From the NCBI RefSeq assembly GCF_000817735.3, contig NZ_JTJC03000009.1, positions 62,001-126,000 of the forward strand: a DNA stretch of 64,000 bases, read 5' to 3'. The DNA is from Scytonema millei VB511283. GTDB taxonomy: Bacteria > Cyanobacteriota > Cyanobacteriia > Cyanobacteriales > Chroococcidiopsidaceae. The notes under the pieces are model-generated. The model saw only the letters and a list, made by a program, of their open reading frames with translations, had not been told where the DNA came from and did no database searches. Below are positions 28,257 to 62,586 of this stretch, piece by piece. The number at the start of each line of letters is the position of its first letter. Position 1 is the stretch's first letter. The translations under genes and the position numbers were made by a program.

Positions 28257-28312
28257 CCCTTTGATATAGAAACGTCAAATATAACGCCTCTACATTGAAT
28301 TGCTAAATATTC

Positions 28313-45960: not shown

Positions 45961-47385
45961 TTAGCCTAGTAATGAATTGGGCAGGCAATCTTGCCGAATT
46001 AAGTCTTGATAGGTTTCGCGCCGCAGAAGCAGCTTTGCTTCTTGGTTCGCTACTACCACTGCTGCTGGTCGGGGCAAGCGGTTGTAATTGGAAGCCATGC
46101 TGTAGTTATAAGCACCAGTTCCCATTACTACCAAAATATCCCCTGGTTCGGTTTGTGGTAAAGATGCCTCTTTTATTAGGATATCGCCTGACTCGCAGTG
46201 TTTTCCAGCTACTGTGACGGTTTCGCTGACTGGTGCGGACATTCGATTGGCAACTACAGCACGATAGAGCGATTGATAGGTAATCGGTCGAGGATTGTCG
46301 GACATGCCACCATCGATCGCCACATATGTCCGAATTTCCGGTACGGTTTTGCTAGAGCCAATCGTATAGGCAGTAACGCAAGCAGTACCGATTAGCGATC
46401 GCCCGGGTTCGCATAATAATTTTGGTAAAGGTAAGTTTTGGGACTCGCAGGCTGCTTTCACTGCTTGGCAAAGTGCTTGTACCCATTCGTCAATACTGGG
46501 TGGATCGTCGGATTCTGTATATCGAATTCCCAATCCACCTCCTAAATTTAACTCCGTAACTGGCAGTCCGTAACTTTTCGCTTTTTCCATCCACTGCACC
46601 ATCACCTCAGCCAAATCTTGATGGGGTTGGCGCTCGAAAATTTGCGAACCGATGTGGGCGTGCAATCCGACACAAGTTAAATTGGGTTGTTGTCCGATAA
46701 AGGCAAAAACTGCTTCAATTTGGTCGGGATCGAAACCAAATTTACTATCCAAATGCCCAGTTCTAATGTAATCGTGGGTGTGGCAGTCAATCCCTGGCGT
46801 TAATCGCAGCATTATCCGAGTTTGTTGTAGAGACGTTGCACGCAACGTCTCTACAATATTTACTAAGGACTTCAGCTCGTACCAGTTGTCTACTACAATC
46901 GTGCAGCCAGACTCAATCGCCAGCGACAATTCTTCTACAGATTTGTTGTTACCGTGAAAGTAGATAACTTCTGGCTTGACACCTGCTTGTAGTGCAGTAT
47001 AAAGTTCTCCTCCAGAAACGACATCAATACCCAAGCCTTCAGAGTGGGCGATCGCGCATACTCCCAAGCAACTCCAAGCTTTTGAGGCATAAAGTACCTG
47101 AAATTCACCAGGGTAATAGTTTTGAAATGCCGAGCGATACTGACGGCAAGCGCTGCGGAGGGTTTCTTCGTCTAGAATATATAGCGGCGAACCAAACTGC
47201 TGTACGAGTTTTGTCACATCGCAACCACCAATTTCTAGATGGTCGTGGCTGTTGATTCCTGCTGTCAGTGGTAAAAGTTCTTGGTTGGGCGATCGCTTAG
47301 CAGCGTCTCCATTGTTGCCGTTGTTTGCGTTATGAATATATTGACGACCGGAATTTTCGATTCCAGCGGGCTGAGTCGATAACAT
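45961..47385 (-). CDS. lysA: Diaminopimelate decarboxylase with in-frame palindrome
   Basis: 474-residue PLP enzyme that makes lysine from meso-diaminopimelate. Landmarks: the PLP lysine in FQVLYASKAWS, HGNNKSVEEL, LRLTPGIDCHTHDYIRTGHLDSKFGFD, GLHAHIGSQIF, NLGGGLGIRY, EPGRSLIG, and the CESGDIL cysteine near the substrate site. The N-terminal 45 residues are an asparagine-rich extension. Residues about 177-187 ([11 protein letters not shown]) are encoded by a perfect 32-bp palindrome at 46825-46856 and lie in a loop just before RIMLRL. The catalytic core looks intact, so the enzyme is presumably active. Confidence 0.96.
   Translation of the reverse strand: MLSTQPAGIENSGRQYIHNANNGNNGDAAKRSPNQELLPLTAGINSHDHLEIGGCDVTKLVQQFGSPLYILDEETLRSACRQYRSAFQNYYPGEFQVLYASKAWSCLGVCAIAHSEGLGIDVVSGGELYTALQAGVKPEVIYFHGNNKSVEELSLAIESGCTIVVDNWYELKSLVNIVETLRATSLQQTRIMLRLTPGIDCHTHDYIRTGHLDSKFGFDPDQIEAVFAFIGQQPNLTCVGLHAHIGSQIFERQPHQDLAEVMVQWMEKAKSYGLPVTELNLGGGLGIRYTESDDPPSIDEWVQALCQAVKAACESQNLPLPKLLCEPGRSLIGTACVTAYTIGSSKTVPEIRTYVAIDGGMSDNPRPITYQSLYRAVVANRMSAPVSETVTVAGKHCESGDILIKEASLPQTEPGDILVVMGTGAYNYSMASNYNRLPRPAAVVVANQEAKLLLRRETYQDLIRQDCLPNSLLG
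46825..46856 (-). repeat. 32-bp palindromic element inside lysA
   Basis: TTGTAGAGACGTTGC, two bases, GCAACGTCTCTACAA: 15-base perfect arms. On the coding strand it is base-for-base identical to the element at 61737 in anmK, loop included, but read in another frame. Confidence 0.95.
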
Positions 47386-47532
47386 AATCGTGTAAGCTAT
47401 CCTCTTGCAGGACGTGAGTGGGTCTAAACTTTAAGTTTACAATTGCAGCCTGTCAGTTATCAGTTGTCAGTTATCAGTGAGTAGTGAAAAAACAAACGAT
47501 CGATGACAAATGACCGCTACTCCCCATCCAGA

Positions 47533-48156
47533 ATGAGTGCTAGCCTGTCAATTCAACCAATATTGCCATCTGTCCTACCTGCGGTACTGGAACTCGACAA
47601 CCTTTGTTTCGGTAAACTGTGGACTCTCGAAGCCTATCAACGGGAAATAGACAGCCCAAATAGCGAGTTATTAGGGTTATTTCTTCAAAAAAACCAGGAT
47701 CGAGAAAATACTTACGACTTACGACTTACGACTTACGACTTACTCGCAATGGGCTGTCTCTGGGCAATTTTAGATGAAGCTCACATTACCTTGCTGGCGG
47801 TTCATCCCGATTACCAGGGACGAGGTTTGGGACAAGCACTGCTTTGGGGATTGATGCAGGTTGCACGCGATCGCGCTTTGTCACGAGCGACTTTGGAAGT
47901 GAGGGAATCTAATCAACCAGCTATCTCTCTTTACAGCAAATTTGGTTTTCAACTAGCTGGGCGCAGGCGGCGTTACTACAAAGATACGAATGAAGATGCC
48001 CTGATTCTGTGGCAGAGTAGGTTGCAACAACCGGAGTTTCAAGCCCAGTTGACAGGCTGGCACGATCTGGCAAGCGATCGCCTCCAACAATCTGGTTTCA
48101 GTTTAAACGTTCAAAAACTGGAGATTATTCATCCAGAGTCAAGAAATTTGAGCTAA
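47533..48156 (+). CDS. rimI: Ribosomal-protein-alanine acetyltransferase-like GNAT (RimI-type)
   Basis: 207 residues from ATG 47533; the ten extra codons upstream have no support. GNAT domain: acetyl-CoA loop VHPDYQGRGLGQALLWGL (Q/R-x2-G-x-G), then ATLEVRESNQPAISLYSKFGFQLAGRRRRYYKDTNEDAL, the classical RimI-like run. Residues about 58-70 (ENTYDLRLTTYDLL) are encoded by an ACTTACG heptamer array at 47711-47743, inserted before the strand AMGCLWAILDEAHI. A C-terminal extension of about 45 residues follows the domain. Located upstream of clpC. The exact substrate, N-terminal alanine of a ribosomal protein or another, is not proven. Confidence 0.86.
   Translation: MSASLSIQPILPSVLPAVLELDNLCFGKLWTLEAYQREIDSPNSELLGLFLQKNQDRENTYDLRLTTYDLLAMGCLWAILDEAHITLLAVHPDYQGRGLGQALLWGLMQVARDRALSRATLEVRESNQPAISLYSKFGFQLAGRRRRYYKDTNEDALILWQSRLQQPEFQAQLTGWHDLASDRLQQSGFSLNVQKLEIIHPESRNLS
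47711..47743 (+). repeat. ACTTACG heptamers inside the rimI-like gene
   Basis: Four or more units of CTTACGA in the reading frame. Because seven is not a multiple of three, all three frames are used in turn, giving TYDLRLTTYDLL without a stop. Confidence 0.9.
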
Positions 48157-52059: not shown

Positions 52060-52122
52060 GTAGGGATGCACATCTGTGCGCCCCTACAGATCTATGTACC
52101 CCATCTAATGGAGAGTTATAGT
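52060..52122. repeat. GGGGCGCAC palindromic repeat, copy 4
   Basis: CGTAGGGATGCACATC-TGTGCGCCCCTAC then CAGATCTATGTACCCCATC and AGTTATAG, an element related to that at 42666 including the flank. Confidence 0.75.
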
Positions 52123-61416: not shown

Positions 61417-62586
61417 ATGACCTTAGTAGTTGGTTTAATTAGCGGGACTTCTGTTGATGGCATAGATGCCGCTTTGGTAAATATTACAGGCAGAACTGAA
61501 GATATTCAGGTAGAACTGTTAGCGGCAAACACTTATCCTTATCCTACCGATTTGCGATCGCAAATTTTAGCAGCTTGTAAAGGTGAAGCCATCTCCATAC
61601 CTCAATTAGCAGCTTTAGATGATGCGATCGCGCTTTGTTTTGCTCAAGCTGCTCAAAATATCCAAGCCGGACATCCTCCCGCCGAATTAATTGGTTCCCA
61701 CGGACAAACTGTTTTCCACAGACCACCTGCTTTAGGTTGTAGAGACGTTGCGTGCAACGTCTCTACAACTCAATATTCGCTTGGCTACAGCCTGCAACTC
61801 GGACGCGGGGCGGCGATCGCGCAACTCACAAATACTCCAACGGTCAGTAATTTTCGGGCAGCAGATATTGCTGTGGGAGGTCATGGAGCGCCTTTAGTGC
61901 CGAAAGTTGACGCTTACCTGCTCAGTCACCTTTATGAGGCGCGATGCGTCCAAAATCTCGGTGGAATTGGAAATGTAGCCTATCTTCCTCCCCGCAGTCA
62001 TGTCAACTGGGAGGAAAAAGTCAGAGGTTGGGATACGGGACCAGCCAATACTTTATTAGATTTAGCAGTCCAGCACTTAACTGATGGCGCGCAAACTTAC
62101 GATCGCGATGGCAATTGGGCAGCTAGCGGTACTCCTTGTCATCCTCTTGTAGAACAATGGCTCAGTCAAGATTTCTTTCACCTCCCACCACCAAAATCGA
62201 CAGGACGAGAGTTATTTGGCTGGGAATACTTACAACAATGTTTAGTTGATGCTCAAAGTTACCAATTGAGTGCAGCTGACTTGCTGGCAACTTTGACAGA
62301 ATTCACTGTCGTATCAATTGTGCATAGTTACCGGACATTTTTACCGCAAATGCCAGCACGAGTTCTTTTATGTGGCGGTGGTAGTCGAAATTTATATTTA
62401 AAGCAGCGACTGCAATTTCATCTAGAAGTACCAGTCTTGACCACAGATGAAGCGGGATTGAGTGCCGATTTCAAAGAAGCGATCGCCTTTGCCGTTCTAG
62501 CCTACTGGCGACAACAAGGCATACCAGGCAACCTACCTCAAGTGACTGGAGCAAAGCAAGCAGTTTTGTTAGGTGAGCTTGCGTGA
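61417..62586 (+). CDS. anmK: Anhydro-N-acetylmuramic acid kinase with in-frame palindrome
   Basis: 389 residues. AnmK opens and phosphorylates 1,6-anhydroMurNAc during peptidoglycan recycling. Conserved blocks: [88 protein letters not shown] and [12 protein letters not shown]. Residues about 107-118 ([12 protein letters not shown]) are encoded by the 32-bp palindrome at 61737 and lie in a loop after HRPP. Active-site blocks look intact. The ATG arises within an AACTGAT array and has no visible ribosome binding site. Heptamers follow the stop. Confidence 0.95.
61737..61768 (+). repeat. 32-bp palindromic element inside anmK
   Basis: TTGTAGAGACGTTGC-GT-GCAACGTCTCTACAA, 15-base perfect arms, identical to the coding-strand element in lysA at 46825. 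Here it is read as [10 protein letters not shown]. Confidence 0.95.

Follow-up and report, generated by a model that had tools for sequence, protein, structure and literature searches.

A dispersed palindromic repeat inside lysA of Scytonema millei, with paired changes suggestive of template switching

How does a perfect palindrome come to lie, in frame, within the gene for diaminopimelate decarboxylase, and what keeps its two arms alike? The question is raised by a stretch of 64,000 nucleotides from Scytonema millei VB511283 – the window – in which the sequence TTGTAGAGACGTTGCACGCAACGTCTCTACAA resolves into TTGTAGAGACGTTGC-AC-GCAACGTCTCTACAA, two arms of 15 bases about a 2-base centre, covering codons 177–187 of lysA (Table 1). 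The arms, the centre and the in-frame position, all reported in the first-pass annotation, can be read directly from the DNA, as can the identical coding-strand 32-mer in anmK that it had placed in another frame. A comparison of the two genes (lysA, ..GTA GAG ACG..; anmK, ..TGT AGA GAC..) bears this out: the core is translated into 10 residues in each, from different frames, and the remaining forward frame, used by neither gene, is the only one of the three to carry a stop (TAG), just as had been said. At up to three mismatches the 32-mer occurs at these two places in the window, and in 100 shuffles not once. The predicted RNA hairpins (-20.9 kcal/mol in lysA and -25.3 in anmK, with 0 of 200 shuffles folding as well) are strong enough to make an effect on translation of the two genes possible.

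Table 1. Two intact repeats, the genes that hold them and a decayed relative within the window.
Feature	Position	Strand	Remarks
Palindromic repeat in lysA	46825–46856	-	28-bp core 46827–46854 plus 2 further pairing bp per side
lysA, diaminopimelate decarboxylase, 474 aa (repeat host)	45961–47385	-	Pfam PF02784/PF00278
Second copy, in anmK	61737–61768	+	identical coding-strand 32-mer; 28-bp core 61739–61766, pairing 3 bp further
anmK, anhydro-N-acetylmuramic acid kinase, 389 aa (host of second copy)	61417–62586	+	PF03702
Decayed family copy (locus 57, C9:90266)	28266–28293	.	3 outer-arm mismatches; outside frames >60 codons

The host gene clusters with cyanobacterial genes in a quick LysA tree, and a search of the window's genome (G000; 5.97 Mb in 17 contigs, 99.95% complete) found no second close lysA, the nearest other match being 27% identical over 136 residues. 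The gene is still under purifying selection: between G000 and the sister genome G001 (489-codon open frame) there are 31 synonymous differences at 344 sites and 8 nonsynonymous differences at 1123.

The palindrome is not peculiar to these two genes. That the 32-mer might occur nowhere else in the genome was a possibility raised at the outset; it falls away with the anmK copy and with a host of dispersed relatives, because the exact core shared by lysA and anmK, its centre left free, is found at 3 places in G000, the pattern TAGAGACG-N(2-30)-CGTCTCTA at 44 (control 0) and GTAGAGACG-N10-CGTCTCTAC, at up to three mismatches, at 143 (control 2). This last pattern gives the build of the family: a 28-bp palindrome present in many copies. 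The inner ten bases are near-palindromic too, but vary among lineages. The commonest inner word in G000 is TTACATGTAA, whereas the lysA and anmK copies carry TTGC-N2-GCAA; words across genomes include TTCCATGGAA, TTGCATGCAA, TTTCATGAAA and TTGTATACAA. A phylum survey with GTAGAGACGTT-N6-AACGTCTCTAC returned 53 of 386 genomes and 33 of 143 genera, a patchy distribution. Among 88 of the 89 places listed, the six inner bases that the pattern leaves free are paired in 83, 80 and 77 cases at the three inner positions, with all four pair types present at the outermost. In both copies of the window, and in most of those examined, the GTAG at one end pairs with the CTAC at the other, paired ends being what the search pattern favours. 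Several copies sit within arrays of the TTATCAG type, and at the matching place of G001 the decayed copy of the window has an intact form.

Nothing ties the family to a means of movement in the places inspected. The genome has 8 Y1_Tnp matches, and in the 3.4-kb loci around them we found no family element at up to four mismatches, only a single arm-like word at one (L251). Eight loci inspected in wide view showed neither a clean empty site nor a target-site duplication, and in these two sets of loci neither an insertion mechanism nor a target duplication nor a transposase could be linked to the family. Some individual elements have features of their own. G000 also contains a second 28-bp family, built alike (GTAGGGGCG...CGCCCCTAC), with a copy at 2585–2612 of the window and a variant, GTAGGGATG...CGCCCCTAC, at 52060–52087; the stretch containing the latter is absent from the matching place of both sister genomes. 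The element at C5:18380 (L117, G000:C5) pairs for 18 bp past the core on each side, so that the inverted repeat there measures 64 bp about its 2-base centre; at G000:C3:461025 and G000:C7:84293 the second arm is apparently repeated about 15 bp on.

With one frame closed by a stop, it had been argued that the palindrome can enter coding sequence in most phases. This puts the weight in the wrong place. Long open frames hold fewer copies of this dispersed family than expected: 10 of 61 examined copies fall in a frame of at least 150 codons (stop to stop), against 7108 of 9139 (77.8%) 28-mers sampled from the window, although a search that prefers intact copies could have missed broken genic ones. 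The 61 came from the places listed in the genome searches together with the surrounding stretches; 68 rows in 350 kb of G000 sequence were reduced by five GTAGGGG copies and by two rows that overlapped a nested copy, and two hybrids with the GTAGGGG family were retained. By our reading of the translations, three of the ten in-frame copies are within the body of a protein (lysA, anmK and a 721-codon FAD-cyclase-like frame) and five upstream of a likely start codon; of the remaining two, one forms a C-terminal tail and the other is in an N-terminal region, in a frame that runs off the end of the stretch. From their translations we take the products concerned to be FAD-cyclase-like, DnaJ-like, PanD, P-type-ATPase-like, GlgA, AtpG, PsiE-like and PIG-L-like; no Pfam family was found for the cyclase-like protein. 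The copy at G000:C7:84293 is in an open frame upstream of the likely glgA start. Beside lysA, an array of ACTTACG heptamers (47710–47745) is read through in ORF 47503–48156, presumably a gene for an acetyltransferase-like protein.

The copies that do lie within proteins occupy loops that accept inserts and are very variable in length. In a 29-row alignment the invariant columns L174 and R194 enclose the whole LysA insert, and the predicted model, of moderate confidence (mean pLDDT 68.7), has a helix at 168–181 and a strand at 189–195, which would place the insert at the end of the helix and in the loop ahead of a core strand, where it had been put from the sequence. The further claim that the element adds about 11 residues does not survive comparison: the segment from D166 to R194 measures 28 residues in the window, 3 above the median of 25 among relatives and 4 above 1HKV. 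Alignment with orthologues thus gives a mixed answer. The repeat does sit in a variable loop, but a clean gap of 11–12 residues is absent, because in relatives the segment can be as short as 20 residues or as long as 71 (91 of 119 loci parsed). Other genomes hold other sequences at the same places. The lysA of G002, a member of the same genus, has an unrelated, longer insert at the loop, and that of G005 has another. The AnmK loop, which follows an 11-residue segment, carries the repeat in G000 and G002, several in-frame heptamer arrays in place of the palindrome in G001 (L077), and other repeats in G005, G006 and G008. In the cyclase-like protein G001 and G002 have a partly duplicated form that keeps the frame and is longer by 7 and 8 residues, and tandem arrays occupy the place in some other genomes (16 of 30 loci parsed). 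The presence of so many unrelated repeats in the three loops indicates that they accept varied inserts.

What happens to a copy after its arrival is recorded in its orthologues, which show complementary paired changes beyond controls. The lysA repeat is itself an instance. In G001 it reads GTAGAGAAGTTGC..GCAACTTCTCTAC, and both members of one base pair differ from G000: the two differences between the inserts are exact partners (GAGACG/CGTCTC in G000, GAGAAG/CTTCTC in G001), one of them changing Thr to Lys and the other, four codons on, silent. A search allowing two mismatches found the G001 form once in G001 and in neither G000 nor G002, others among the matches listed differing by 2; unique in the three genomes, it arose in place and not from another intact copy there.

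For a wider view the 100-nt flanks of the 61 copies were searched against G001 and G002 (with 40 matches in each genome scored), giving 76 orthologous places for 45 copies and, with lysA and anmK, 47 aligned loci; 10 orthologue rows with flank identity below 85% were left out. A first batch of 29 loci, each with at least two intact copies, contributed 377 pairs, of which 10 had changed on both sides, 6 being complementary in both species, and 32 on one side; sliding the 3′ partner by 1–4 columns left 0–4 both-changed and 0–1 complementary. The second batch (13 further copies, 10 loci aligned, 6 usable) supplied 78 pairs with 5 both-changed and 4 complementary, against 0–4 and 0 after sliding. 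Combined, 35 loci and 455 pairs yield 15 both-changed, 10 complementary and 40 one-sided pairs, against 1–8 both-changed and 0–1 complementary in the slid control (315–455 pairs), the upper figure of 8, with 1 complementary, coming from a slide of -4. These events are few and all come from one genus.

Several details accompany the excess. Locus 30 shows G-C, a one-sided G/G and C-G in the three species, as expected of passage through a mismatch. At two of the 29 first-batch loci (36 and 54), and at none of the six of the second batch, the copies are reverse-complemented between species. At loci 5 and 36 complementary changes extend into the flanks, and outside the main count the anmK flank shows one as well (TT..AA against TA..TA). 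Of 59 copies, 13 continue to pair for 3 bp or more past the core, where shuffles average 3.5 and not one of 2000 comes as high, and 4 do so for at least 5 bp (reached by 8 of 2000 shuffles); the excess symmetry lies at offsets 1–4, weakly at 6, 9 and 11, and is lacking at 5, 7, 8, 10 and 12. Across 62 comparisons, which are not independent and include the later-dropped locus 46, the arms differ at 91 of 1612 sites (5.65%) and the flanks at 686 of 12249 (5.60%). Mismatched arms also persist – in all three species at locus 28, and as a shared mismatch at locus 2 – and this, combined with the preponderance of one-sided over complementary changes (40 to 10), indicates that any copying of arm to arm is infrequent.

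The lysA site has a history beyond the genus. A scan of named genomes, confined to the best 80 of at least 585 confirmed LysA matches, showed the repeat occupying one and the same codon of lysA in three lineages or more. Anabaena lutea FACHB-196 and A. catenula FACHB-362 have it at the same codon and in the same frame, perfect and with the inner word TTTCATGAAA; Nostoc sp. MG11 (L286) has it with TTGTATACAA; and altered repeats occupy the codon in Nostoc sp. B(2019), aff. Roholtiella LEGE 12411, Komarekiella atlantica, Nostoc XA010 and an uncultured Nostoc. Sphaerospermopsis, Nostoc WHI and Coleofasciculus LEGE 07092 retain remnants, an uncultured cyanobacterium (L317) has a copy elsewhere in the loop, and Trichormus M33 (L273) has a look-alike in another register. 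The inner words vary by lineage (TTGC, TTTC, TTGT). The MG11 element, a perfect palindrome of 40 bp, is the longest in lysA among the loci parsed. Recent transfer of the lysA segment was considered and is not supported, since the flanking DNA resembles the window's lysA to about the same degree in 9 genes that bear the repeat and in 14 that lack it. For anmK no reuse of the site was seen outside the genus: 2 of 48 parsed loci (of 58) carry the repeat, those of the window's genome and G002, which shows that site reuse is not general.

Our explanation, which we consider probable, is that the lysA element is one copy of a dispersed family of cyanobacterial palindromes, tolerated where it lies and made symmetrical again from time to time by template switching. 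The insert would be a passenger in a free loop, with no part in the enzyme's work. During replication its single strand would fold into a hairpin, and the polymerase would occasionally copy one arm from the other, which is how the palindrome would regain its symmetry: through copying of this kind a mutation in one arm becomes a change of the pair, and it can also flip the element or extend its symmetry into the flank. In lysA one such step would have exchanged Thr for Lys and altered the silent site four codons on. Template switching is here deduced from the pattern of changes alone; arms that diverge like their flanks yet change in pairs suggest that process rather than selection for the hairpin.

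The same pairs could have been produced by selection, were the hairpin of use, whether as RNA or by binding a protein, and a mutation in one arm followed by a selected partner in the other. The strength of the predicted hairpins, the five copies that our translations place just upstream of likely start codons and the very occurrence of paired changes all speak for this. We nevertheless think it quite unlikely, for the equal rates of arms and flanks argue against selection for the hairpin, one-sided changes are common, no Rfam family reaches its gathering score within the window, and the hairpin has no evident use inside the lysA coding sequence. Replacement of one palindrome by another copy of the family, whether by gene conversion or by a further insertion at that spot, may account for some events: the new form at locus 5, TTGCACGCAA, with that at locus 26 (both TTGC), matches other copies in the genus, so that either change could be a replaced copy, and locus 55, the source of two second-batch events, may be another, its close flanks being different. 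Inner words also differ among the lysA lineages. As a general account, replacement seems to us rather unlikely, given that the G001 lysA form was seen at no other place in the three genomes and that complementary changes run on into the flanks at loci 5 and 36 and in anmK. There remains the protein. The insert might be a working part of LysA or AnmK whose peptide is selected, and it has been kept in the lysA of G000 and G001, a gene under purifying selection, as well as in several Nostoc relatives. But the LysA loop is conserved in neither sequence nor length, G002 lysA and G001 anmK hold unrelated inserts in its stead, and lysA and anmK read the element in different frames; a role for the insert in LysA is unlikely, and selection on the peptide as the explanation very unlikely indeed.

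How the lysA codon came to be occupied is a separate matter, on which the evidence divides. A single gain in a distant common ancestor may have been followed by loss in most lineages: the window's genus shares codon and frame with Anabaena lutea and A. catenula and with the Nostoc/Komarekiella/Roholtiella clade, and decayed forms are found in Sphaerospermopsis, Nostoc WHI and Coleofasciculus. Against a single old gain, the repeat-bearing genes do not form one clade (p-AU 1e-6, on a quick tree and for a group chosen by the trait), and the inner words follow lineage. On the LysA tree, built without the loop from 118 of 119 genes, at least 5 state changes are needed for the ten clear cases and 6 for the thirteen that include remnants, counts that are blind to the difference between gain and loss. 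We regard the single gain as doubtful, if far from negligible. A bolder reading joins the two halves of the problem: one codon boundary of lysA would have been captured independently in at least three, perhaps four, lineages and then kept symmetrical by template switching. Reuse of the boundary would call for a target preference, such as short homology of the repeat's ends to the native codons (GNAGAG ... TCTCTA). We put this combined account forward tentatively, at rather less than an even chance.

Parallels with known systems are of likeness in feature. The palindromic elements of Rickettsia (RPE) are repeats inserted in frame in unrelated proteins, and the first-pass annotation drew the comparison. 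It holds as an analogy, with the 28-bp repeat in frame in the unrelated proteins of lysA, anmK and the cyclase-like gene, the difference being that 3 of the 61 copies examined are in a protein body. Closer to home, the small dispersed repeats (SDR) of Nostoc and its relatives are reportedly 21–27 nt long, often in heptamer arrays, with some stems said to be supported by compensatory changes. The 28-bp family is likewise dispersed in cyanobacteria, with several copies in TTATCAG-type arrays, and is set beside the SDR by description only. That work, Elhai et al. 2008 (Genome Res. 18:1484), is cited by PMC4390886 and PMC6513891.

A palindrome of this sort in coding sequence was not known to the first-pass annotation as described for this family; the kind, at least, had already been reported. 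The accessible part of Di Nocera et al. 2013 (PMC3733652) describes palindromic repeats inside ORFs of several species and such families in cyanobacteria. Its REPs tagged GTAG or CGTC are palindromes of 20–40 bp, mostly intergenic, whose subfamilies differ by alternative complementary residues in the stem, and those of two Xanthomonas species occur at about the same recB site. The 28-bp family resembles the GTAG REPs – and the cyanobacterial families GTAG-12, -15 and -16 among them – in size, in being a many-copy palindrome and in having some copies within ORFs; it differs in that the REP GTAG is an unpaired tag at one end, whereas here GTAG stands at one end and CTAC at the other, and the two pair. 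GTAG REPs are linked to RAYT (tyrosine transposase) genes; here no transposase gene was found beside a copy at the 8 Y1_Tnp loci, and a link to a more distant gene may exist. With GTAG-12, -15 and -16 the comparison is by the description in the text of PMC3733652, and the 28-bp family may be identical with one of them. Nematomorpha mitochondrial genes likewise have perfect inverted repeats embedded in coding sequence, but these are mitochondrial, reach 284 bp and are not the 28-bp family (PMC6649704, in its accessible part).

The mechanism, too, has precedents. Homogenisation of arms and inversion of the spacer are given as marks of template switching at inverted repeats in the accessible parts of PMC8604942, where yeast genes show amino-acid changes from such events in coding DNA, and of PMC8794818, which concerns template-switch mutation in RNA genes. 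The 28-bp family displays both an excess of paired changes (10 of 455 against 0–1) and inversion of the element (loci 36 and 54); the difference is that it does so in a dispersed bacterial repeat, among orthologous copies in three species of one genus. A literature search, thin in its coverage of subscription papers, found no report of the 28-bp repeat in lysA, and for the letters GTAGAGACG the titles among the matches listed were unrelated to cyanobacteria. Dispersed and intragenic palindromic repeats are thus known as kinds; what is new is the apparent reuse of a site in lysA and the paired change in place inside a constrained gene, neither of them visible to the first-pass annotation.

Two arms that change in concert, as though one had been copied from its partner, make it seem that a habit of DNA copying, and not protein function, shapes this piece of LysA. 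Compensatory base changes are commonly read as proof of a selected RNA structure. Paired changes in a repeat whose arms evolve like its flanks, once within a constrained gene, argue for a mutational origin, and the family offers a countable natural system in which to measure arm-to-arm template switching in bacteria. The findings also point to protein loops as landing places for small repeats, one such loop being usable in separate lineages. Should template switching indeed maintain the symmetry, two codons would be coupled at the level of DNA inside a protein: in a constrained gene they would change together by mutation alone, imitating the coevolution of residues.
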